From: Caldicellulosiruptor danielii
GTDB lineage: Bacteria; Bacillota; Thermoanaerobacteria; Caldicellulosiruptorales; Caldicellulosiruptoraceae
Length of the DNA stretch: 64,000 bases
Reading direction: 5' to 3'
NCBI RefSeq assembly: GCF_034343125.1
Contig: NZ_CP139957.1
Location: 1,730,001-1,794,000 of the forward strand
The notes beneath the pieces are model-generated. The model made no database searches. It saw nothing but the letters and a program-made list of their open reading frames with translations, and had not been told where the DNA came from. The translations under genes and the position numbers were made by a program. This document shows positions 3,022 to 60,814 of this stretch, in pieces; the stretch's first letter is position 1, and each line of letters starts with the position of its first letter.

Positions 3022-3822
3022 ATGTTTGATTATCATATTCATTCAAACTTTTCATCTGACTCAAATATGAGCATGGAAGATGCTATCAAAAAAGCTTTAG
3101 AGCTTGGCCTTGATGAGATAGCTTTTACTGACCATATGGACCTTTTATACCCGCCAGTTTCATATCCTATCTGGGATATAGACTATGAGGAGTATATGAA
3201 AGAATTTTATTCTGTTAAGGAAAAATACAAAGGAAAAATTAAAATTAAATTAGGTGCTGAAGTTGGTTTGCAACCACACTCTATAGAAAAAAGTTTGGAG
3301 ATCTTAAATAGCTATCAGTTTGATTTCATTATTGCATCAACTCATGTTGTAGATTTTCAAGATTTAGCAGATGGCGTCTATTATAGCGGTAAAACCAAAG
3401 AACAAGCTTTTTTGAGATATTTTGAAGAAACTTTTAACCTTATAAAAATGTTTGATAAGTTCTGTGTATATGGTCATCTTGATATTGTAAAGCGCTATGG
3501 AAATTATGAAAATAAAGAACTGGACAGAAAAGAATATTGGGACCTTATAGATGAGATTTTAAAATTGCTTATACAAAAAGGGAAAGGAATTGAAGTAAAC
3601 ACTTCTGGGTTCAGATATGGTCTTGATATGCCTCATCCTGAATTTAAAATTTTAAAAAGATATTATGAACTTGGTGGAAAAATTATTACAATTGGTTCTG
3701 ATGCTCATTCTACAGAGTTTATCGCTTACATGTTCAAGCCAACCATTGAAATGTTAAAAGACATTGGTTTTAAGTATTTAACAAAATTTGAAAACTTAGA
3801 ACCAGTATTTATAAAAATATAG
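3022..3822 (+). CDS. PHP-family phosphatase, histidinol-phosphatase (HisJ/HisK type)
   Basis: 266 residues with the PHP metal-binding motifs: DYHIHSNFSSDS at the N-terminus, AFTDHMD near residue 35, a conserved Glu in KLGAEVGLQP, the ASTHVVD segment, GHLDIVKRYG, and GSDAHS near the C-terminus. Family members hydrolyse L-histidinol phosphate in histidine synthesis. No his genes are adjacent, so a different phosphoester substrate is possible. It is transcribed divergently from cca and convergently with mnmA, with a short hairpin terminator shared at the 3' ends. Confidence 0.8.
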   Translation: MFDYHIHSNFSSDSNMSMEDAIKKALELGLDEIAFTDHMDLLYPPVSYPIWDIDYEEYMKEFYSVKEKYKGKIKIKLGAEVGLQPHSIEKSLEILNSYQFDFIIASTHVVDFQDLADGVYYSGKTKEQAFLRYFEETFNLIKMFDKFCVYGHLDIVKRYGNYENKELDRKEYWDLIDEILKLLIQKGKGIEVNTSGFRYGLDMPHPEFKILKRYYELGGKIITIGSDAHSTEFIAYMFKPTIEMLKDIGFKYLTKFENLEPVFIKI

Positions 3823-3842
3823 GCCCTCACACGAGGGCTTTC
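3822..3842. terminator. Hairpin between convergent hisJ-like gene and mnmA
   Basis: GCCCTC at 3823-3828 pairs with GAGGGC at 3833-3838 around a four-base loop, followed on the plus strand by TTTCTC. It overlaps the mnmA stop codon. Confidence 0.6.
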
Positions 3843-4912
3843 TCTATTATACCACCACCTATTACAATATCATTATTGTAAAACACCACAGACTGTCCTG
3901 GTGTTATTGCACGCTGCTTTTCGTAAAACTTGACAAGTACCTTATTATTTCCTATAGGTACTACTTTGGCTTTTGCTTCTTTGGCTGTATATCTTATCTT
4001 TGCTGTAACTTCTAATTCAGATTCCAATCTGTCAAACGGAATAAAATTTAAATCACTTGCAATAAGCGCATCCGCAAATATCCTGTCTTCTTCACCCAAA
4101 ACAACTTTGTTTTCTTCTGGCTTTATATCAATTACATACATTCTCTTGCCAGTTGAAATACCAAGTCCCTTTCTTTGCCCAATAGTGTAATTGTAATAAG
4201 CCTTGCTTCTGCCAAGTATATTTCCTTCTGTGTCTACATATACACCATCTTCTTTAATCCCTGTTTCTTTTTCAATAAACTTGCCATAGTTATTATCAGG
4301 AATGAAGCAAATCTCCTGGGAATCAGGCTTTTTTGCAACAGGGAGTTTAAATTTTTCTGCAAGTCTGCGAACCTCATCCTTTGAAAATCTCCCTAAAGGG
4401 AAGAGAGTTTTTGATAACATCTCCTGTGTCATGTTATATAAAACATAAGTCTGGTCTTTTTCTCTTGCTTTAGACCTTTTCAAAAGGTATCTGCTCAGAG
4501 TATTGTCATATTCCACAATTGCATAATGACCAGTTGCAATATAGTCCATACCAATAGCAATGGCCTTTTTTAAAAAGAGTTCAAATTTGATCTTTCTGTT
4601 ACACATTATACAAGGATTGGGAGTTCTGCCCTTTATATATTCTTCAACAAAATAGTCAATTACCATTTCTTTAAAATCATCTCTCATATTAAAGACATAG
4701 TATGGAATATTAAGTATATCAGCAACTTTACGAGCATCTTCTACTGCATAAATCGAACAACAACTTTTTCCTGCTACTTGTTCATCTTCACACTCGCTTT
4801 GCCAAATCTGCATTGTAGCACCATATACTTCGTATCCTTCTTCCTTTAATATAGCGGCAGCAACAGAAGAATCAACACCTCCACTCATTGCAACAAGGAC
4901 TTTTTTCTTCAA
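3827..4912 (-). CDS. mnmA: tRNA-specific 2-thiouridylase MnmA
   Basis: 361 residues. The PP-loop SGGVDSSVAAA is near residue 9. The catalytic cysteines are seen in PNPCIMCNRKIKF (first) and SQEICFIPD (second). It adenylates U34 of tRNAs for Lys, Glu and Gln and inserts sulfur, with sulfur supplied by a cysteine desulfurase. The start is TTG, chosen because GGGTGAGA lies five bases upstream and it gives the family N-terminus MKKKVLVAMSGG. It directly follows nifS and nifU on the same strand, which fits a sulfur-transfer operon. Confidence 0.95.
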   Translation of the reverse strand: MKKKVLVAMSGGVDSSVAAAILKEEGYEVYGATMQIWQSECEDEQVAGKSCCSIYAVEDARKVADILNIPYYVFNMRDDFKEMVIDYFVEEYIKGRTPNPCIMCNRKIKFELFLKKAIAIGMDYIATGHYAIVEYDNTLSRYLLKRSKAREKDQTYVLYNMTQEMLSKTLFPLGRFSKDEVRRLAEKFKLPVAKKPDSQEICFIPDNNYGKFIEKETGIKEDGVYVDTEGNILGRSKAYYNYTIGQRKGLGISTGKRMYVIDIKPEENKVVLGEEDRIFADALIASDLNFIPFDRLESELEVTAKIRYTAKEAKAKVVPIGNNKVLVKFYEKQRAITPGQSVVFYNNDIVIGGGIIEKALV

Positions 4913-4935
4913 AAAATCTCACCCTTTTACATTAA

Positions 4936-5328
4936 TTAGTTTTGTGTTTGTTGCGTTTGTTGTTTTTGTTTGCTCAAATAGTCTTCAATTGCAGCTTTTA
5001 TAGCTTCTTCAGCCAAAACTGAACAGTGAAGCTTATTTGGCGGAAGACCATCTAATGCCTCTGCTACAGCCTTGTTTGTAATTTGCAATGCTTCTTCAAT
5101 AGTCTTTCCTTTTACCATTTCTGTTGCCATTGAACTTGTGGCAACAGCAGCACCACATCCAAATGTTTTAAACTTTGCATCAACTATTATACCATTTTCT
5201 ATCTTAAGATACATCTTCATTATATCCCCACATTTTGGATTGCCCACTTGAGCAACACCATTTGCATCTTCAATTTCTCCAACATTTCTGGGATTCATAA
5301 AATGGTCCAAAACCTTTTCACTATACAT
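4936..5328 (-). CDS. nifU: Iron-sulfur cluster scaffold protein NifU/IscU-like
   Basis: 130 residues, single IscU-type domain. Three cluster-ligand cysteines are visible: GNPKCGD near residue 34, FGCGAAVA near residue 58, and KLHCSVLAEEA near residue 100. A low-complexity Gln/Thr tail ends the protein. It assembles [Fe-S] clusters on sulfur delivered by the adjacent cysteine desulfurase, whose stop lies only two bases upstream of this start. It sits in an operon with iscR, nifS and mnmA. Confidence 0.92.
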   Translation of the reverse strand: MYSEKVLDHFMNPRNVGEIEDANGVAQVGNPKCGDIMKMYLKIENGIIVDAKFKTFGCGAAVATSSMATEMVKGKTIEEALQITNKAVAEALDGLPPNKLHCSVLAEEAIKAAIEDYLSKQKQQTQQTQN

Positions 5329-5330
5329 CT

Positions 5331-6515
5331 TTAATTACCCCCTTTTTTTACCTTTTCATAAAGTGGGCTCATCTCTCTAAGCCTTGATACAATCTCTGGC
5401 AAGACCTCTAAAAGATAATCTATATCTTCTTCTGTATTATCCTCACCTAAGGTTATTCTCAAAGAACCATGCGCTACCTCATGTTCAAGCCCTATTGCCA
5501 ACAGCACATGTGATGGGTCTAAAGACCCCGATGTGCAAGCAGAACCGCTTGATGCCGCAATCCCTTTCATGTCAAGCATCAAAAGCAGGCTTTCACCTTC
5601 AATAAACTCAAACGAGAAATTAGCATTATTTGGAAGCCTGTTGTATCTATCACCATTTAGACGAACATAATCAATCTTACTCAAAACCCCGTCAATAAGC
5701 TTATCTCTTAATTTTTGAAGCCTGCTTGCATACTCTGTAAGATTTGCAGTTGCAAGCTCTATCGCCTTGCCAAGCCCAACAATTCCAGCAACATTCTCTG
5801 TTCCTGCACGTCTGTTTCTCTCTTGAGCTCCTCCATGTGAAAACGGATGAATCTTCGTTCCCTTTTTTATATACAGCGCCCCAACCCCTTTTGGTCCATA
5901 GAACTTGTGAGCAGAAAGTGATAGCAGATCAACACCTAAATCTTTAACATCAACAGGAATTTGACCAACTGCCTGAACAGCATCTGTATGAACAATTATT
6001 CCCTTTTCCTTTGCTATCTTTGCTATTTCCTTGACAGGCTGGATTGTCCCAATTTCGTTATTTGCAAGCATGACAGAAATCAAAATGGTATCATTTCTTA
6101 TTGCCTCTTTTATCTTTTGAGGGTCAACAATACCATTTGGTTCAACAGGAACATATGTCACTTCAAATCCTAAACCTTCAAGATATTTCAGAGGATGCAA
6201 AACTGCATGATGCTCTATTGTTGTTGTTATAATATGATTGCCTTTATCTTTATTTGCAAAAGCAACCCCTTTTAATGCCCAGTTATCTGATTCTGTTCCA
6301 CCAGAAGTAAAGTAAATTTCTTGAATATCTGCATTTAAGGCCTTTGCCACCCTTTCTCTTGCAAGTTCAATAGCTTTTTTTGCTTCTCTTCCAAGCTTGT
6401 AAATTGTTGAAGGATTGCCGTACTGTTCTGTCAAATACGGCATCATTTCATCTAATACTTCCTTTTTTAGAGGGGTTGTAGCTGCATGGTCAAAATAAAT
6501 AATTTTCCCTTCCAT
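5331..6515 (-). CDS. nifS: Cysteine desulfurase (NifS/IscS)
   Basis: PLP enzyme converting cysteine to alanine and a protein-bound persulfide. [10 protein letters not shown] begins the protein, the PLP lysine is in [15 protein letters not shown], and the catalytic cysteine is in [17 protein letters not shown] near residue 320. The ATG giving MEGKIIYF was chosen because GGGAGATG lies six bases upstream; an ATG three codons earlier is too close to that site. It supplies sulfur to NifU for clusters and to MnmA for tRNA thiolation, both encoded downstream. Confidence 0.95.
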
Positions 6516-6579
6516 ATATATCATCTCCCATTATTTTTATCTTTTTAGTAGGCTTTCTATAACTATTATACCCCGTTTT

Positions 6580-7032
6580 TTAGATATAAAACATGTATGA
6601 CTCATTTGCTGTTATCTTTTTATAATCATCAACCAAATCCTGGAGCGTGACAGAGTCAACAACGTTTTCTATTGCTTCTTTGACCTTTTCCCAAACCTTT
6701 CTTGTCACACAAAACTCTGCTCTTGGACAGTCAACCCTTTCTATATCATCTATACATTCAGAAGGCGAAAGTGACCCCTCAAGAGCTCTTAAAATCTCAC
6801 CTATGGTAATTTTAGAAGGTTCTCTTGAAAGCATATATCCACCCTGCGCCCCTCTTATACTCTTGACAAGTCCTGCTTTTTTCAAGGCAGCAATGAGTTG
6901 TTCTAAATAATGTTCAGAAATCTCCTGACGCTCTGCTATACTCTTTAAAGATACAAGCCCTTCATCATAGTGAAGCGCCAAGTCAAACATAGCCCTGACA
7001 CCGTATCTTCCCTTTGTAGATAATCTGAACAT
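6580..7032 (-). CDS. iscR: Rrf2/IscR-family transcriptional regulator
   Basis: 150 residues from the ATG preceded by GGAGAG seven bases upstream (a TTG five codons earlier lacks a site). The winged-helix N-terminus reads MFRLSTKGRYGVRAMFDLA. The cluster-binding cysteines appear as CIDDIERVDCPRAEFC near residues 90-106. It is the likely sensor of iron-sulfur demand controlling the nifS-nifU-mnmA operon that follows. An imperfect inverted repeat lies between its promoter and its start. Confidence 0.9.
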   Translation of the reverse strand: MFRLSTKGRYGVRAMFDLALHYDEGLVSLKSIAERQEISEHYLEQLIAALKKAGLVKSIRGAQGGYMLSREPSKITIGEILRALEGSLSPSECIDDIERVDCPRAEFCVTRKVWEKVKEAIENVVDSVTLQDLVDDYKKITANESYMFYI

Positions 7033-7049
7033 CTCATATCTCTCCAATT

Positions 7050-7066
7050 CCGACTAGTATACTCGG
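7050..7066. promoter_or_regulatory. Candidate IscR/Rrf2 operator
   Basis: CCGACTA-GTA-TACTCGG is a 17-bp imperfect inverted repeat (one mismatched pair), 18 bases upstream of the iscR start and just downstream of its promoter. Position and shape suit autoregulation by a dimeric Rrf2 protein; the assignment is inference. Confidence 0.45.
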
Positions 7067-7076
7067 CTTTTATATT

Positions 7077-7106
7077 ATGATAACATTCTTGAGGTATTTT
7101 TGTCAA
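7077..7106 (-). promoter_or_regulatory. Sigma-A-type promoter of iscR-nifS-nifU-mnmA
   Basis: On the minus strand, TTGACA (7101-7106) is followed after 18 bases by TATCAT (7077-7082), upstream of the candidate operator. Confidence 0.5.
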
Positions 7107-7399
7107 GGATATAAAAAAGCTGTCTCTCTATCTTCTTATGAGAAACAGCTTGCTTTTATTTTCCTTGATTTTTAAATATTCTTTTCTTCTGGCAATTCTT
7201 TTAATGCACCAATTATTTTCTTTCTCAATACATTATCCATTACTCATTACCCAATGATTAATATTATTTGTAATTATATCATAGCATACATTCAATGTTA
7301 ATATCACACACTTATCACAAAACAGTAGATAGATTAGTCTGTCTTCTGCACCGGAGATCATTGTTTTTTCAACGTGGTTGCCTCAAGCACTTTCATTTC
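7107..7399. other. Intergenic stretch with one hairpin
   Basis: About 300 bases without a gene. The only structure seen is a 12-bp stem (7117-7128 with 7140-7151, one mismatch) flanked by T-rich sequence on both strands, so it could act as a terminator in either direction, although no gene obviously ends there. The rest is AT-rich with no supported reading frame. Confidence 0.4.
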
Positions 7400-7440
7400 A
7401 TTATTATACTTTAAAGTATAATAATTTGTGGTATAATAAT
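7400..7440. promoter_or_regulatory. 26-bp perfect palindrome plus repeated arm upstream of ATPase gene
   Basis: Positions 7400-7425 are a perfect 26-bp palindrome centred on CTTTAAAG. Its right arm GTATAATAAT (7416-7425) is repeated exactly at 7431-7440. The repeat ends only 16 bases before the ATPase start codon and overlaps TATAAT-like hexamers, so it is placed to act as an operator or as a structured 5' leader. Confidence 0.5.
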
Positions 7441-7455
7441 ATTGAGGTGAAAACA

Positions 7456-8856
7456 ATGAAGAAATTTGTGGACAGAGAAGTTGAACTCCAATTTTTAGAG
7501 AGTCAATTTTCTCAAAATGGTCCGGCTCTTGTTGTCATTTATGGAAGGCGACGAGTTGGCAAAACTGCTCTGATTAAACAGTTTATAAAAAACAAAAAAG
7601 CAATATATTTTCTAGCTACTGAAGAAGTGGAGAGCCAAAATATTAATAATTTTAAGAGTCTGGTTGCAAAATTTTTTAATAATAGCCTCCTAGAAAAGAT
7701 TCAAAATATCACGTGGGAGGAAATCTTTGAGTTTATAACTGCTAATATAGAAAGCGAAAAAATAATTATAGTTATTGATGAATTTCAATATCTTTGCAAG
7801 GTAAATCCATCTTTTGCTTCAATCTTACAAAAAATTTGGGATGAAAGGTTAAAAGAAAAAAATGTCTTTTTAATTCTTTGTGGGTCATTGATTAATATGA
7901 TGGAACAACAAGTTTTGAACTACTCCAGTCCTCTGTATGGAAGAAGAACCGGGCAAATAAAGTTGAAACCTTTAAAGTTCAAATATTTGAAAGAATTTTT
8001 TCCACAAGCAACAGAGGATGAACTTATCTGGCTTTATGCAATATTAGGAGGCGTCCCAAAATATTTAGAAGTATTTAACTACAAGGGAGACATTTTTGAA
8101 TCTATAAGAGAAAATATTTTAAACAAGCAAAGTTTTCTATATGAAGAGCCTTTGTTTTTGCTCGAAAGAGAAATTCAAGATATTGGAACTTATTTTTCAC
8201 TTATTAAAAGTATATCTATGGGCAATCATAAACTTCACCAAATAGCTCAAAACCTTTCTGTTCACCAAACAAGATTAACAAAGTATATAAACACCTTGAT
8301 AGATCTAGATATGCTTCGCAGAGAGATTCCTGTGACAGAAGAATATCCTGAAAAGAGCAAAAAGGGCTTATATTTTATCAACGATAACTTTTTAAACTTC
8401 TGGTTCAAGTTTGTTTATCCTTTCAAAGAGCAGTTAGAACTTGATAATGTGGAATTTGTTTTGGAGAATATAAAGAGAAAAATTGTGACTGAGCACATAA
8501 GTTACGTCTACGAGGATGTATGCAGAGAATACGCATTGGAGTTGTCGAACAGGAGTGAACTGCCTTTAAAAGTGAGCAAGATTGGGAGATGGTGGGACAA
8601 AAATGATGAGATTGACATTGTTGGAATAGATCAAACTTCTGGTTCTATTTTGTACGGGGAATGCAAATACACAAACGCTAAAGTAGATATTGACTTGTTT
8701 TACTCTCTTAAACAAAAGGTAAGCAAAGTAAATTTGAAAAATAAAACTAAGGAGTATTATATTATATTTAGCAAATCAGGATTTACAGAGAGATTTTTGA
8801 ATTTTGCAAATGAAATGAAAAATCTAATACTTATCAATTTTCCAAAAAGGAGCTAA
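7456..8856 (+). CDS. DUF234-type AAA ATPase with C-terminal nuclease-like domain
   Basis: 466 residues from the ATG preceded by GAGGTGA at five bases. The N-terminal P-loop ATPase has Walker A in YGRRRVGKTALIKQF (about residues 27-41) and Walker B IIIVIDEFQYL. A winged-helix segment follows (HQTRLTKYINTL). The C-terminal DUF234 region has EIDIVGI and GECKYTNA, which resemble a PD-(D/E)xK core. Proteins of this class are common in archaea and thermophilic bacteria and have no settled function; links to mobile elements or genome defence have been suggested. It stands alone behind a large palindrome and ends at a good terminator, like a single-gene accessory unit. Confidence 0.8.
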   Translation: MKKFVDREVELQFLESQFSQNGPALVVIYGRRRVGKTALIKQFIKNKKAIYFLATEEVESQNINNFKSLVAKFFNNSLLEKIQNITWEEIFEFITANIESEKIIIVIDEFQYLCKVNPSFASILQKIWDERLKEKNVFLILCGSLINMMEQQVLNYSSPLYGRRTGQIKLKPLKFKYLKEFFPQATEDELIWLYAILGGVPKYLEVFNYKGDIFESIRENILNKQSFLYEEPLFLLEREIQDIGTYFSLIKSISMGNHKLHQIAQNLSVHQTRLTKYINTLIDLDMLRREIPVTEEYPEKSKKGLYFINDNFLNFWFKFVYPFKEQLELDNVEFVLENIKRKIVTEHISYVYEDVCREYALELSNRSELPLKVSKIGRWWDKNDEIDIVGIDQTSGSILYGECKYTNAKVDIDLFYSLKQKVSKVNLKNKTKEYYIIFSKSGFTERFLNFANEMKNLILINFPKRS

Positions 8857-8989
8857 AATGTAAAAGTTTTTATTTATTTTTCAAGATTGCTTTTTTTATG
8901 CCCATTTTCTAAAAAAGCTAAAGTTGTGTTATGCTGTTTTTGCAACCATGTTCTTAACGGTTTCAAAAATTGGGTTTTTCTTTAGAAGG

Positions 8990-9025
8990 AAGAGAGAGGA
9001 TTGTGGAGTAACATCCTCTCTTTTG
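8990..9025 (+). terminator. Intrinsic terminator after the DUF234 ATPase
   Basis: AGAGAGGAT (8993-9001) pairs with ATCCTCTCT (9013-9021); outer A:T pairs extend the stem, and TTTT follows. Confidence 0.65.
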
Positions 9026-9114
9026 TTCTATGAAATAACCGACTCATGGTATTGAGTAGTAAAAAATTTATTTGGTACTTAGATAGAATTGTCAGGTAGA
9101 TAACATAAATAAAA

Positions 9115-9303
9115 ACTCAAAAAGAAGAGCGTAGAGAAAGACGGAATAATCAGATATTTCCTTATTCAGGAGGCTAAAAAAACAGGGGAGAGAATATAGC
9201 CGTCTTTCACTCTATTTGCTTAGAAAAAATATGGCATTAAGATAAGTGAAAACACAATAAAATCTATTCTTAAAAGAAATGCTGTTCTGACTTGAGAACT
9301 TGT
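9115..9303 (+). pseudogene. Degraded transposase/integrase fragment
   Basis: In one plus-strand frame (about 9217-9290) the reading KKYGIKISENTIKSILKRN is obvious. It resembles the helix-turn-helix and linker region of rve-type transposases (IS481/IS3 groups). An upstream frame gives YFLIQEAKKTGERI before a stop. Stops and frame changes break the reading, so only a relic remains. It abuts the toxin-antitoxin genes and suggests that this accessory stretch has received mobile DNA. The family assignment is tentative. Confidence 0.45.
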
Positions 9304-9720
9304 TTATCGCTTGATAATCTTATGAACAAAATCAAAAGGAGTTATTGCTCTTGATATAAGCTTTTTAAACTTATCATCTCTTGTTATTAACCACTCTGCC
9401 TTGATTTTTTTTGCACATTGAAGTTGTAAAGCATCCTCTAAATCCTTTATAGCTGGATTTCTCAAAGCATCTTCTACATCCTTTTTAGTTATACCAACAA
9501 GTTTTACTATGCTAAGTAATGCTTCAATACCTTGACGTGCTTTTTCATTCCCTAAATTCTTGGAGATAAAATAATAAATATCTGTAACAGCAAAAGAAGC
9601 AATATACCCTTCCACAACGTTTTGCTCACAGTATTTTAACACTGTATACGAATCGGTGTCAAATGGTGCTCTTTTTAATAAAACATCCAAAATAACATTA
9701 GTGTCAATTAACACCTTCAT
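9304..9720 (-). CDS. PIN-domain protein, VapC-type toxin
   Basis: 138 residues. MKVLIDTNVILDVLLKR supplies the first conserved Asp; further acidic residues are in the DVEDALRNPAIKDLEDALQLQCAKK segment and in ITRDDKFKK near the C-terminus, matching a PIN ribonuclease active site. Such toxins cleave tRNA or rRNA and are held inactive by their partner. The start overlaps the end of the antitoxin gene by 17 bases, so translation is coupled. Confidence 0.85.
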   Translation of the reverse strand: MKVLIDTNVILDVLLKRAPFDTDSYTVLKYCEQNVVEGYIASFAVTDIYYFISKNLGNEKARQGIEALLSIVKLVGITKKDVEDALRNPAIKDLEDALQLQCAKKIKAEWLITRDDKFKKLISRAITPFDFVHKIIKR

Positions 9721-14987: not shown

Positions 14988-15019
14988 AAGGTCAAAGAGG
15001 CAAAGTCCTCTTTGACCTT
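14988..15019 (-). terminator. Terminator of the ribosomal supercluster after rplQ
   Basis: A 13-bp perfect stem, AAGGTCAAAGAGG (14988-15000) with CCTCTTTGACCTT (15007-15019), followed on the minus strand by TTTTTGG. It overlaps the rplQ stop. Confidence 0.85.
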
Positions 15020-15359
15020 ACACAAGCTCTATATAAACCATCATTGCACCGTCACCTTTTCTTGGACCCACTTTAATTATTCTTGTATAACCGCCATTTC
15101 TTCCTTGATACCTTGGCGCAATCTTCTGGAACAAATCATAAGCCACATCTTCTTCATAAAGGTACCCTAAAACCCTTCTATATGATGCAAGGTCGCCTTT
15201 TTTAGCTATGGTGATGAGCTTTTCAGCCACTCTTCTCAAATCCTTCGCCTTTGCTTCTGTTGTCATTATTCTACCATGCTTGAACAAAGATGTTGCCAAG
15301 TTTCTCATAAGAGCCTGTCTGTGATCTGTATCGCGTTTAAGTTTTCTCAATTTGTTCAT
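15018..15359 (-). CDS. rplQ: 50S ribosomal protein L17
   Basis: 113 residues beginning [21 protein letters not shown], a standard L17 N-terminus, with the ATG preceded by GGAGGAGGAAG. L17 sits at the peptide exit side of the large subunit. It closes the alpha operon, and its stop lies inside the terminator stem. As read, its frame is continuous with rpoA upstream, but the ribosome binding site and normal start show it can be made as a separate protein. Confidence 0.93.
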
Positions 15360-16331
15360 TTCTCTTCTTCCTCCTCCTTCGGGCGTGCTATCGCTCTTTT
15401 TGAGGCTCAGACCTAAGCTGTGAAGCTTTTGAATGACCTCCTCTAAGGATTTTTTACCAAGATTTCTTACCTTCATCATCTCTTCCTCTGTCTTGTTGAC
15501 TAAATCCTCAACAGTGTTGATACCTGCTCTTTTGAGACAGTTGTATGACCTGACTGAAAGTTCAAGCTCTTCTATAGTCATATCAAGAAGCTTATTCCTC
15601 TTTGGTGGTTCTTGTTTGACAACTGTCTCAATTTTAGTCGGAATATTTGAAAGGTCAGTAAACAAGTTAAAGTGCTCGATTAAAATTTTTGCAGCAACTG
15701 TCAATGCCTCATCAGGTCTGATAGTACCATTTGTCCAAATCTCCATTGTGAGCTTGTCATAATCTGTAACTTGACCAACTCTTGTATTCTCAACCTTGTA
15801 ATTTACCTTGGTAACAGGGGTATAGATTGAATCAACAGGAATTACACCTATTGGCTGGTTTGGTTGTTTATTTCTTTCAGCCGGAACGTAACCTTTCCCT
15901 TGATTTACTGTTATCTCCATAAAAAGTCTTGCGTCAGAATTAAGCGTTGCAATATGGTGTTCAGGATTGCAAATCTCTATATCAGCATCTGCTTTTATAT
16001 CTTTTGCTTTTACTTCACACTCACCCTGAGCCTCAATGTACATTACCTTTGGCCCTGGGGATGACATCTTGATAGCCAAACCTTTTAAATTGAGTATTAT
16101 CTCTGGTACATCTTCTAAAACCCCTGGAATTGTTGAAAACTCATGTAAAACCCCATCAATCTTAACTGCTGTAACTGCTGCACCAGGCAGTGACGACAAA
16201 AGTGTCCTTCTAAGTGCATTACCAACCGTTATACCATAACCTCTCTCCAGGGGCTCAATGACATATCGCCCATATTTATTGTCTGGGCTCAGCTCTTCAC
16301 ACCTTATTGTTGGTTTTTGAAATTCTATCAA
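15018..16331 (-). CDS. rpoA: RNA polymerase alpha subunit, reading frame fused to L17 as sequenced
   Basis: Residues 1 to about 310 are Rpo[24 protein letters not shown] in the dimerisation domain and the C-terminal domain [23 protein letters not shown]. After [14 protein letters not shown] the frame runs straight into the L17 methionine, giving 437 residues. If one base is removed near 15380 (in CCCGAAGG on the coding strand), the frame instead reads TPKEEEEEK and stops at 15356-15358, overlapping the rplQ start as ATGA. That is a far more normal arrangement, so the fusion is probably a single-base error. The true RpoA would then be about 324 residues. Confidence 0.88.
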
Positions 16332-36399: not shown

Positions 36400-36435
36400 A
36401 AAAGATTTAATAATTGCTTAATTAAAGTCAAACAT

Positions 36436-38488
<2,053 letters not shown>

Positions 38489-38556
38489 GAAACATGTAGC
38501 ACAATAAATATATCTATAATTTGTGCAAACTGTATATTGTTTTTTTTTTTTTTTTT
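38489..38556. repeat. Right copy of the long direct repeat flanking the IS
   Basis: Fifty-one bases identical to the left copy, followed by 17 T's (38540-38556) and then unique sequence. Compared with the left copy only the T-run length differs. Confidence 0.85.
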
Positions 38557-38583: not shown

Positions 38584-38614
38584 TTTGATATTAAAGCTTA
38601 AAGTCTATATCAAA
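38584..38614. promoter_or_regulatory. Inverted repeat upstream of the candidate peptide gene
   Basis: TTTGATAT (38584-38591) and ATATCAAA (38607-38614) are perfect inverted arms 23 bases apart centre to centre, ending just before the ribosome binding site of the peptide gene. TTGATA with a 17-base gap to TATCAA also has promoter-like spacing. Operator or promoter; cannot be decided. Confidence 0.4.
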
Positions 38615-38632
38615 GGGAAGGAGGGAAGTTTT

Positions 38633-38689
38633 ATGAAAAAACAACCTATTATTGTAGAGATGTTTGCAGGCTGTGACAGCAGACATTAG
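38633..38689 (+). CDS. Candidate RiPP precursor peptide, 18 residues
   Basis: The reading MKKQPIIVEMFAGCDSRH ends with TAG. A strong AAGGAGGG lies seven bases before the ATG. The gene is followed by a hairpin and then by a radical SAM/SPASM gene, a PqqD-like gene and an exporter, which is the usual order for a ribosomally made, enzyme-modified peptide with its precursor first. The single Cys with Asp, Ser, Arg and His after it is a possible modification core. The family is not recognised. Caution: the product is very short and the region has apparent indels, so the true C-terminus could differ. Confidence 0.55.
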   Translation: MKKQPIIVEMFAGCDSRH

Positions 38690-38706
38690 ATCACACATAT
38701 TTTTTT

Positions 38707-38735
38707 AGGAGGTTCGTCTATCTAACGAACCTCCT
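38707..38735 (+). terminator. Hairpin between peptide gene and maturase gene
   Basis: AGGAGGTTCGT (38707-38717) pairs with ACGAACCTCCT (38725-38735), 11 bp perfect, seven-base loop. No strong T run follows, so it is more likely a leaky terminator or 3' stabiliser that raises precursor over enzyme expression. Confidence 0.6.
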
Positions 38736-38784
38736 TCTTCACATAAAATTAATAATAACTATAAATTAAGGAAGTGAAAATTTA

Positions 38785-39830
38785 ATGAATAGAATTTTAA
38801 AAGCACCAGAACTTGTAAGTTGGGAAATAACAAATCAATGCAATTTAAGATGTGATTATTGTTCAAATGATGACAATTTCTATAATTCATCTCTACCTCT
38901 TTCTACTGAGGAATGTAAAAAGATTATAGATAATTTACATAAAGCCGAAGTTTTTAGAATAAACATCGAAGGCGGAGAACCTTTTTTGAGAAATGATCTG
39001 TTAGAAATAATAGGATATTTAAATGAAAAAGGTTATATCCCTAAAATAGCAACTAATGGAACATTAATTACAAGAGAATTAGCCAAAGAACTTGCAAATT
39101 ATAAAATATCAACATTACAAATAAGTTTAGATGCTCCAAATAAAGAATGCTACTCTAATATAAGAGGTTCTAAAATTTATTTTGACAAAATTTTAGAAAA
39201 CATTGAATATTTAAAAGAATTTAAAATACCGATTTGCCTTTCAATGGTGTTGCTGAAGACAAATATTAATTTAGTGGAGGATTTTATAATATTTGCTAAA
39301 AAAATTAAAGTAAATAGTGTTAGATTTATAGATTTTATTCCTAATTCAGAAGAAAAAATGTTGTTAGTCCCTTCAAGTGAAGAAATTAAAAAAGCTTATA
39401 TTACAATAAACAAATTTGAAAATACATCTGAGTTTAAAATCATAAAGCCATATAAGTTACTCAGCACTTTAATATTTGACCAAAAAAATGAAAAAACTAT
39501 TCGAACTTTACTTTACTTCGATGGATTAACAGGGAAAAAAAGGTTATATGTGAAGCGGCAAATATTATAGCTCATATAAAAGCCAATGGAAATATTACAC
39601 CATGTGTTTTTTTTAGAGAAAAAGAATTTATTGCAGGAAACATTTTGCAACATGATTTTCAATATCTTTGGAATTATTCTCCAGTCTTCAATCTCTTTAG
39701 AGAACTTTCCAATGACAATTGTCCTTACTGTGTTTACTTTAGCACTTGTATGGGTGGTTGCAGAGCTCTTGCTTTTTATGTTAATAAAAATCTTAATGGT
39801 ATTGATAGTCGATGCTGGTATAATACATAA
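38785..39830 (+). CDS. Radical SAM/SPASM peptide maturase, frameshifted as sequenced
   Basis: The first part carries NQCNLRCDYCSN (Cys 19, 23, 26) for the SAM-binding cluster, the GGEP motif in INIEGGEPFL and the usual TIM-barrel segments. The frame stops at 39570, shortly after a run of seven A's (39535-39541). With eight A's the frame continues as KVICEAANIIAHIKANGNITPCVFF and ends with CPYCVYF, CMGGC and a final Cys in DSRCWYNT, a complete SPASM domain for auxiliary clusters, stopping at 39830. The whole protein would be 348 residues. It probably modifies the adjacent peptide by a radical mechanism (thioether or C-C crosslink); the exact reaction is unknown. Confidence 0.85.
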
Positions 39831-39849
39831 AATGGAGGTTTAAGTTGCA

Positions 39850-40121
39850 ATGTTCAAAAAAATGAATTTATCAATATAAGGCAAGAAAGTGAAGAAGAAT
39901 ATATTTTCATCAACACAAAAACGGGTGAAACTTTCTTAATAAACGATATAGGGTATATCATTTTTGAATGTGCTCTCAAATCTAAGAGCATGACTGAATT
40001 AGTAAAAAATGTTTGTCAAAAGACTAACGATGACATTGAAAAATCTACAAAAACTATAGAAAACTTTTTAAAAATTCTATTAGAGAAAAACATTCTAATT
40101 CAGGGAGATATTACAGAATGA
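39850..40121 (+). CDS. PqqD-like RiPP recognition element (RRE) protein, frameshifted as sequenced
   Basis: From the ATG at 39850 the frame stops after nine codons, because a run of A's (39856-39862) has seven bases; with eight it reads through 90 residues. The restored product has the PqqD pattern: a beta hairpin YIFINTKTGETFLIND, then IGYIIFECALKSKSMTELV and a winged-helix end ENFLKILLEKNILI. Such proteins bind the leader peptide and deliver it to the radical SAM enzyme. The stop overlaps the exporter start as ATGA. GGAGG lies eleven bases before the ATG. This gene is easily missed because no frame is open from a normal start. Confidence 0.75.
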
Positions 40122-41299
40122 AAAATAATAGAAATGCTATTAACTTGTTATGCTCTCAATTTATATCAGAAATTGGAAATTGGATTGATAGAGTTGCTTT
40201 ACTTACTTTAGTGTATAGTGTTAGCAAGTCAAATTTAAAAATGTCCATTCTTTCTATTTTAATGCTATTACCTGCTGTTATATTTGGTATTCCATTTGGG
40301 AAAATAATTGATTTATCAAACAAAAAAACAATTTTGGTATTTGGAGATATTTCGAGAGCTTTATTAGTAATTTTAGTACCTTTTTCAACTAATTATGTAT
40401 TTTTGATTGTATTTATAATATCTTCCATCACCGCTATTTATGAAAATACAAGAAATAGTATAATTCCAGAACTAATTACCAAAGAAGAAATACGTAAAAT
40501 TAACAGTCTTAGTAGCTCATTAAATTCTATTATGATGGTTGTTGGACCCTCTATAGGTGGATTATTAACTTCTTACCTTGATTTAAAATACTGTTTTTTC
40601 ATTGATTCATTTACTTTTCTTGTTTCTGCTATTTTTATTTCTCAAATTTCATACCATAAACACAAAAGCACAGAGAACCGAAATGAAAATATAAGATATT
40701 TGGAATTCTTAGAATATCTGAGATCTAATTTCATCATAAAAAGTTTAATAATTCTCAATGGTTTAATTGGTCTATTTGCTGGAATTCTGAACGGACTGTT
40801 AATTGTTTATGTGATTAATTATTTACATACTGATTCAAAAGGATATGGTTTTATTCTGACATCAAAAGGAATTGCAATGGTTATTACTTCTCTTCTCATT
40901 TACAAATATTTAAAAACGATAAAAAACGAAACTCTTCTTTTGACAGGAGTAATAGGTTTGGGAATTTCTATCATCCTATTTTCATTAAATAACATTTTTG
41001 AATTTGCTCTTCTCATCCATTTTGCAAATGGAATTTGTAACTCATTTGTTGCCATTGCTCGAACTACTTTAATTCAAGAAAATTGTAACAAGATATTTTT
41101 AGGAAGAGTTTTTAGCTTTAATTCAATAGTGGGGAATATTTCCTCAATTATTTCATTATTAATTGGAGGAATTATATCTAATACTATATCAGTTAAGATA
41201 ATTTTCTTAACCAGCGGAATTAGCATTACACTAATAGGAATGATTTATCTTATTAATTTATCAAAAAACTGTCATAAAATACTTCAACACAGCAGATAA
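40118..41299 (+). CDS. Major facilitator superfamily transporter, probable peptide exporter
   Basis: 393 residues with about twelve membrane segments. The MFS loop motif between helices 2 and 3 is recognisable as GKIIDLSNKKTILVFGD, followed by ALLVILVPF. It resembles bacterial MFS drug or macrolide efflux proteins. The start overlaps the PqqD-like stop by four bases, so it belongs to the peptide operon and is the natural candidate to export the modified peptide; a drug efflux role independent of it is possible. Confidence 0.8.
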   Translation: MKNNRNAINLLCSQFISEIGNWIDRVALLTLVYSVSKSNLKMSILSILMLLPAVIFGIPFGKIIDLSNKKTILVFGDISRALLVILVPFSTNYVFLIVFIISSITAIYENTRNSIIPELITKEEIRKINSLSSSLNSIMMVVGPSIGGLLTSYLDLKYCFFIDSFTFLVSAIFISQISYHKHKSTENRNENIRYLEFLEYLRSNFIIKSLIILNGLIGLFAGILNGLLIVYVINYLHTDSKGYGFILTSKGIAMVITSLLIYKYLKTIKNETLLLTGVIGLGISIILFSLNNIFEFALLIHFANGICNSFVAIARTTLIQENCNKIFLGRVFSFNSIVGNISSIISLLIGGIISNTISVKIIFLTSGISITLIGMIYLINLSKNCHKILQHSR

Positions 41300-60060: not shown

Positions 60061-60793
60061 TTATACCCTCTTTCTTACGATATAGAATCTGAATTTCTTG
60101 GGTGAGAAATAGTTTGAAGAATACAGTATTGGAATATCATTTTGGTCAAAATGAACCTGGTCAAGTAAAAGAACAACATCATTCTTTTCAAGCTCAAGCT
60201 TTTTATACACATTATTTTTCTCAGCAAGCATAGGGATGATATCAGAGATTGCATATGCAATATATATCCCCAGTTTATCATTTAAATAGTCAAATAACGA
60301 TTCTCCTACAAACTTAAACTCAGACGAAAATAACTTTGCAGGAAGTCTATCAACACAATAAACAACAGGAATACTCTCCGCAAGTCGTACTCTTTCTATT
60401 TTGATAATCTCTTCAGCTGGCGAGATTCTGAGCATATGAGCCTCTTTTGCGTTGGGATAGGTTTTAGTTACAACAACATCTCTCGTGTGTGGCTTGTACC
60501 CCTGTTTTTCCATTAGCTTTGTTATGCTCTGAAGCTCTTCCATTCCAGATTGCAAAATTGGCCGTGATGACACAAAAGTCCCAACACCATGTTTTTTTAC
60601 AACATAGCCCTCTTCTTCTAAAATTCTTAAAGCTTCTCTGAGCGTTGCTCTGCTCACACCAAAAAACTTTAGCTAGTTCCATTTCAGAAGGAAGCTTGTC
60701 GCCTTCTTTAAATTTTTCTTCAATGAGTTGCTTTAACCTCTTTAACACAAGCTCATACCTTTGGGGATATCCTACTGATTCAAAACTTTCCAT
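60061..60793 (-). CDS. GntR/HutC-family regulator of the nucleoside operon, frameshifted as sequenced
   Basis: The N-terminal wHTH opens RLKQLIEEKFKEGDKLPSEMELAKVF and, after the break, continues GVSRATLREALRILEEEGYVVKKHGVGTFVSSRP. A run of six T's on the coding strand (plus strand A's 60661-60666) should have five. The C-terminal UTRA domain follows to the stop at 60061: LRISPAEEIIKIERVRLAESIPVVYCVDRLP. Ligand is probably a nucleoside or sugar phosphate. It is embedded between the transporter and enzyme genes, so it likely controls this operon. Total 243 residues when the extra base is removed. Confidence 0.85.
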
Positions 60794-60814
60794 TACTCGC
60801 ACCCGCCCTTTTTT

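Follow-up and report, generated by a model that had tools for sequence, protein, structure and literature searches.

The tryglysin operon of Streptococcus, a WGK RaS-RiPP system, has the gene order wgkA-wgkB-wgkC-wgkD, in which wgkA encodes 21 residues (PMC8092268). Tryglysin producers showed no SHP-inducible immunity (PMC8092268), and sixteen core motifs are listed for streptococcal RaS-RiPPs (PMC13361665). We analysed a stretch of 64,000 nucleotides (the window; GC content 35%), which corresponds to positions 1730001-1794000 of C1, the single contig of the 2.82-Mb genome G000; to judge from its genes, the organism is probably a Caldicellulosiruptor. The plus strand between 38633 and 41299 contains, in sequence, a peptide gene, a hairpin, and genes for a radical SAM/SPASM maturase, a PqqD-like RRE protein and an MFS exporter (Table 1), i.e. 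a tiny precursor, a radical SAM/SPASM enzyme, a stand-alone RRE and a transporter in the same order as in the WGK system (PMC8092268). The stop codon of the PqqD frame (40121) and the start codon of the exporter (40118) overlap as ATGA. By coordinates and frames, all the units proposed in the initial annotation were present: a peptide with a strong ribosome-binding site, a hairpin, the two enzyme-related genes and an overlapping exporter. The initial annotation had also held that a one-base defect hides the PqqD gene. This gene is indeed broken, but the damage is not restricted to it: in comparison with the intact copy in a congener (G011), the maturase gene also lacks one base (GAAAAAACTATT in the window vs GAAATAAATTATT in G011). 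The A7 run at 39536-39542 was ruled out as the site of the maturase defect, being in frame in G011.

Table 1. Positions of the cassette features in the window.
Feature	Position	Strand	Remarks
Poly-T tract, 5' of precursor	38540..38556	+	17 T in the window; about 10 to 26 among relatives
Ribosome-binding site GGAGGG of precursor	38620..38625	+	Kept in relatives
Precursor peptide gene, MKKQPIIVEMFAGCDSRH, 18 aa	38633..38689	+	ATG at 38633; TAG ends at 38689
Hairpin in the gap between precursor and maturase	38707..38735	+	Stem AGGAGGTTCG/CGAACCTCCT; possible attenuator or processing element
Radical SAM/SPASM maturase gene, frame-broken	38785..39830	+	ORF 38785-39570, then a different frame as far as a stop at 39830; one base missing near 39494
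PqqD-like RRE gene, frame-broken	39851..40121	+	One base missing in the A run 39855-39861
MFS exporter gene, intact, 393 aa	40118..41299	+	Proposed exporter and immunity factor

The intact copy in G011 comprises four open genes at the same chromosomal site, encoding MKKQPIIVEMFAGCDSIH and proteins of 347, 96 and 385 aa, and is flanked by a phosphomannomutase-type gene and an aminopeptidase gene; at cassette-free sites, the intergenic stretch measures 48-51 bases. A second genus, from another family of the class, also contains an intact copy (G031), which encodes MKKSPIIRQMVVGCDNVH and proteins of 350, 91 and 389 aa. The two intact maturases share 54% identity. Their alignment shows CxxxCxxC and all seven SPASM cysteines (C256-x12-G-x4-C, C313-x2-C-x5-C-x3-C and C344), and matches to Pfam Radical_SAM (95 bits) and SPASM (38.6 bits) were obtained, in agreement with the complete SPASM end assigned at the outset. 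The highest NCBIfam scores were those of the mycofactocin, heme and WgkB maturases, none of which reached a curated cut-off. The maturases aligned over their full length to the WgkB model (NF050035) with 148 and 174 bits (cut-off 650), StsB gave 94-115 bits (cut-off 625) and PapB 96 bits (cut-off 340). The cassette resembles mycofactocin MftABC in having a short precursor, an RRE protein and a radical SAM/SPASM maturase of similar length; it differs in the MftC score (167-184 bits over the two maturases, against a cut-off of 265), in the end of the precursor, in the presence of an exporter and in the lack of other mycofactocin genes. StsB and PapB, of the sactipeptides and ranthipeptides, are likewise SPASM maturases that act on cysteines; here, however, the RRE is separate rather than fused, the precursor has one Cys only, and the thioether is putative.

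The PqqD-like protein of G011 scored 32.3 bits against Pfam PqqD (cut-off 23.4), the read-through window copy 29 bits, and the G031 copy 21.8 bits, just under the cut-off. An AlphaFold model (pLDDT 85) adopts the winged-helix RRE fold. Its top structural matches were lasso-peptide B1 RREs with bound leader (6jx3, Z 12.3 over 85 residues at 2.1 A; 5v1v, Z 12.1), while the match to PqqD had a Z of 8.4.

The peptide has the consensus MKKxxII..M..GCDxx[HY], which is kept across the two genera. Of 37 genomes in the class, 8 have it, exactly the eight that have a maturase or a maturase remnant, and it lies upstream of every maturase copy in both genera. A 57-base degenerate precursor pattern found only three such loci across 396 genomes of the phylum, and the reversed control gave 0 matches. 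The conservation of the peptide exceeds chance. Two findings that would have spoken against the initial annotation, maturases lacking a conserved short upstream peptide and a 90-residue reading without RRE similarity, were therefore not encountered, the 90-96-residue protein being RRE-like by Pfam and by fold. The statement that the precursor matches no named class held in so far as its GCD motif lies outside the sixteen listed streptococcal subfamilies (PMC13361665) and no NCBIfam maturase cut-off was reached; the gene order, on the other hand, has a precedent in wgkABCD.

As in RaS-RiPP loci, the short precursor gene lies directly upstream of the radical SAM/SPASM gene. In contrast with the WGK systems, the precursor has GCDxx[HY] and no WGK motif, the WgkB cut-off is far from reached, the hosts are thermophilic anaerobes and there is no adjoining Rgg. 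No Rgg/SHP pair was found near the locus in the first genus, and the second genus has a different pair, made of an XRE-TPR regulator and a longer pheromone-like peptide. Because the Rgg/SHP pair, a listed core motif and model scores above the cut-offs are all missing, we use RaS-RiPP-like as a working term and assign no membership.

We consider it likely that the cassette is a RiPP system of the RaS-RiPP (tryglysin-like) type, whose 18-residue peptide is modified by the maturase and exported by the MFS protein, the product probably being a growth inhibitor against which the exporter protects non-producers. Once translated, the peptide would dock with its first residues, MKKxPII, on the stand-alone RRE protein, and the radical SAM/SPASM enzyme would crosslink the C-terminal M-x-x-G-C-D-x-x-[HY], most likely through a thioether from the single Cys. 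The leader would then be trimmed by a host protease, as the cassette encodes none, and the product exported by the MFS protein. The hairpin after the precursor probably raises the level of precursor mRNA relative to enzyme mRNA. The most plausible target is the growth of close relatives, and the exporter may also shield non-producers; the immunity part of this proposal is at odds with the lack of SHP-inducible immunity in tryglysin producers (PMC8092268), and the substrate of the exporter might be a different one.

In the deposited sequence of G000, two genes of the cassette are frame-broken; if the record is correct, the strain probably does not make the product. There are other frame defects in the record. 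The gene for ribosomal protein L2 (rplB, window 27687) is split by a one-base insertion in comparison with G004 and G005, its C-terminal part being 97-100% conserved in the next frame. Likewise, rpoA and rplQ are read as a single ORF of 437 aa (15018-16331), with one extra C near 15378, while in two relatives the rpoA stop overlaps the rplQ start. A GntR-family regulator (about 60680-60800) has single-base insertions vs G004 near its 5' end, and probably does not begin at 60657, the position listed. Since rplB is essential and yet split, the record probably contains errors. The cassette breaks could therefore also be sequencing errors in a strain with a working system, a serious contender that we nevertheless hold to be somewhat less probable than real decay. 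Two breaks occur in about 1.3 kb here, against three others in about 50 kb of coding DNA; the cassette breaks are deletions in A runs, whereas the others are insertions; 136 A/T runs of at least 6 in intact ORFs are unbroken; and other genomes have clear maturase deletions. Breaks are thus denser in the maturase and RRE genes than in the rest of the record, which still tips the balance slightly towards real decay, but we did not count G000 as a proven case. Phase variation through one homopolymer was ruled out, the lesion sites differing in each genome.

The maturase is intact in only one genome per genus, while the exporter is intact at 7 of 7 cassette sites in the first genus and at 5 of 6 in the second. 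In G004, the maturase has acquired three indels and PqqD a nonsense change; in G005 the first two thirds of the maturase are gone; G002 and G003 have a deletion in common, after which a decayed precursor and the final 15 PqqD residues are left; and in G001 the maturase is reduced to a scrap. A 22-base deletion is present in G032 and one inserted base in G034, and deletions reach up to the exporter in G027 and G029. The exporter is open in every one of these genomes. G028, where unrelated neighbouring genes are broken as well, was kept out of the count. Altogether, loss or breakage of the maturase occurred about eight times across the two genera, with the exporter intact. If maturase and exporter are struck in proportion to their length, the chance that six to eight independent events all spare the exporter is about 0.011 to 0.002.

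The exporter had a dN/dS of about 0.13-0.22 in most pairs of genomes without an intact maturase. For G002 and G003, we counted 25 nonsynonymous vs 34 synonymous changes (p about 1e-9), to which recombination may contribute. The relics of these two genomes differ by 4.6%, while their exporters have a dS of 0.145, and the G002 exporter is nearer to that of G005; this discordance indicates that recombination blurs the selection test. Between G011 and G004 (L022, L023), dN/dS was 0.63, on few changes. In this pair the dS was 0.026 for the exporter and 0.335 for the adjoining gene, so that the cassettes are near-identical despite the divergence of their neighbour, which suggests that species have exchanged the cassette at a fixed site. 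An exporter that stays intact and under purifying selection while the maturase is lost is the pattern expected of an immunity function, and this suggests that the product serves as a weapon, against which the exporter protects.

It is rather unlikely, though by no means negligible, that the MFS protein was kept for an unrelated, general efflux function, in which case its survival would tell nothing about the peptide. The family is broad (TIGR00900, 191 bits; MefA, 76 bits), divergent copies without a maturase occur in G001 (62%) and G016 (51%), and horizontal exchange is frequent. Against this, the exporter of the first genus is always still at the cassette site, mostly beside cassette relics, and G002, G003 and G027 still have the end of the RRE reading frame ahead of the exporter. 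Extending the reading of the exporter as protection against the peptide product, we tentatively propose that GCD-type peptides form a new precursor family of RaS-RiPP-like antimicrobials in thermophilic anaerobes, with the MFS exporter as immunity factor, and that populations mix producers with immune non-producers that repeatedly shed the maturase and keep the exporter. The pattern of loss bears on the question of what protects RaS-RiPP producers, tryglysin having shown no inducible immunity.

The hairpin after the precursor occurs at the same place in the two genera, but its sequences there are unrelated. Translational attenuators have this form, a short ORF with a terminator-like hairpin behind it, and the peptide might then be a translation-sensing leader for the downstream genes rather than a substrate. 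We regard this as improbable: the C-terminal GCD..[HY] of the peptide is kept across genera and the hairpin sequence is not, the operon encodes what its family and predicted fold indicate to be a dedicated leader-binding RRE protein, and single-sequence folds showed no competing antiterminator. More improbable still is a pathway to a redox cofactor like PQQ or mycofactocin, in which the peptide would be matured to a small molecule, for although MftC is the best NCBIfam score of the G011 maturase (167 bits), with PqqE at 114 bits and a stand-alone PqqD present, these scores are far under their cut-offs (265 and 381 bits), the cassette has an exporter and no other cofactor genes, and its patchy distribution and repeated loss fit a cofactor poorly.

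No regulator was found beside the cassette in the first genus, the window genome included. The second genus has, ahead of the cassette, a peptide of 44 residues whose start is hydrophobic (MNKKMKILIISTLMFAVLTLVINVIPLEDPPALTLNSSSVCNVV; reverse complement of L034, 5997-6128) and, behind it, a protein of 431-439 residues with HTH and TPR parts (XRE-TPR; reverse complement of L034, 9118-10437). Four genomes share a perfect 14-base palindrome, TACCATTAATGGTA, located about 62 bases upstream of the start of the precursor. The pheromone-like peptide and the HTH-TPR regulator make a candidate RRNPP-like quorum-sensing pair. The tryglysin gene order extends outside the streptococci to thermophilic anaerobes, where the precursor has 18 residues and its core motif is unlisted, and a peptide and TPR-regulator pair is likewise carried beyond streptococci in one of the two genera.

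A search of viral contigs gave no match, and neither did the precursor pattern there. In a scan of genome contigs, the matches listed were only radical SAM proteins with 23-35% identity, and beside none of these listed matches was there a precursor of this kind. Plasmid matches were mycofactocin maturases and other distant ones, and a literature search found no description of this cassette. A Bacillota MAG locus (L070) was rejected as a related cassette, as the cluster is of the azole type and its PqqD and radical SAM parts are fused in one protein. As read from its sequence, it encodes at 3801-9353 a YcaO-like protein, a nitroreductase-like protein, the fused protein and an MFS exporter.

Upstream of the precursor, the window contains an IS1634-family transposase gene on the minus strand (36605-38302). 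It is flanked by near-identical copies, in direct orientation, of a repeat of about 75 bases (36424-38556), which includes poly-T tracts (41 T at 36487-36527 and 17 T at 38540-38556); the repeat looks like a long target duplication just 5' of the precursor. Outside the window, at 968991-971066 of the same contig, there are two radical SAM/SPASM genes in tandem (368 and 364 aa), whose products are 34% and 30% identical to the cassette maturase and have relatives in G002-G004.
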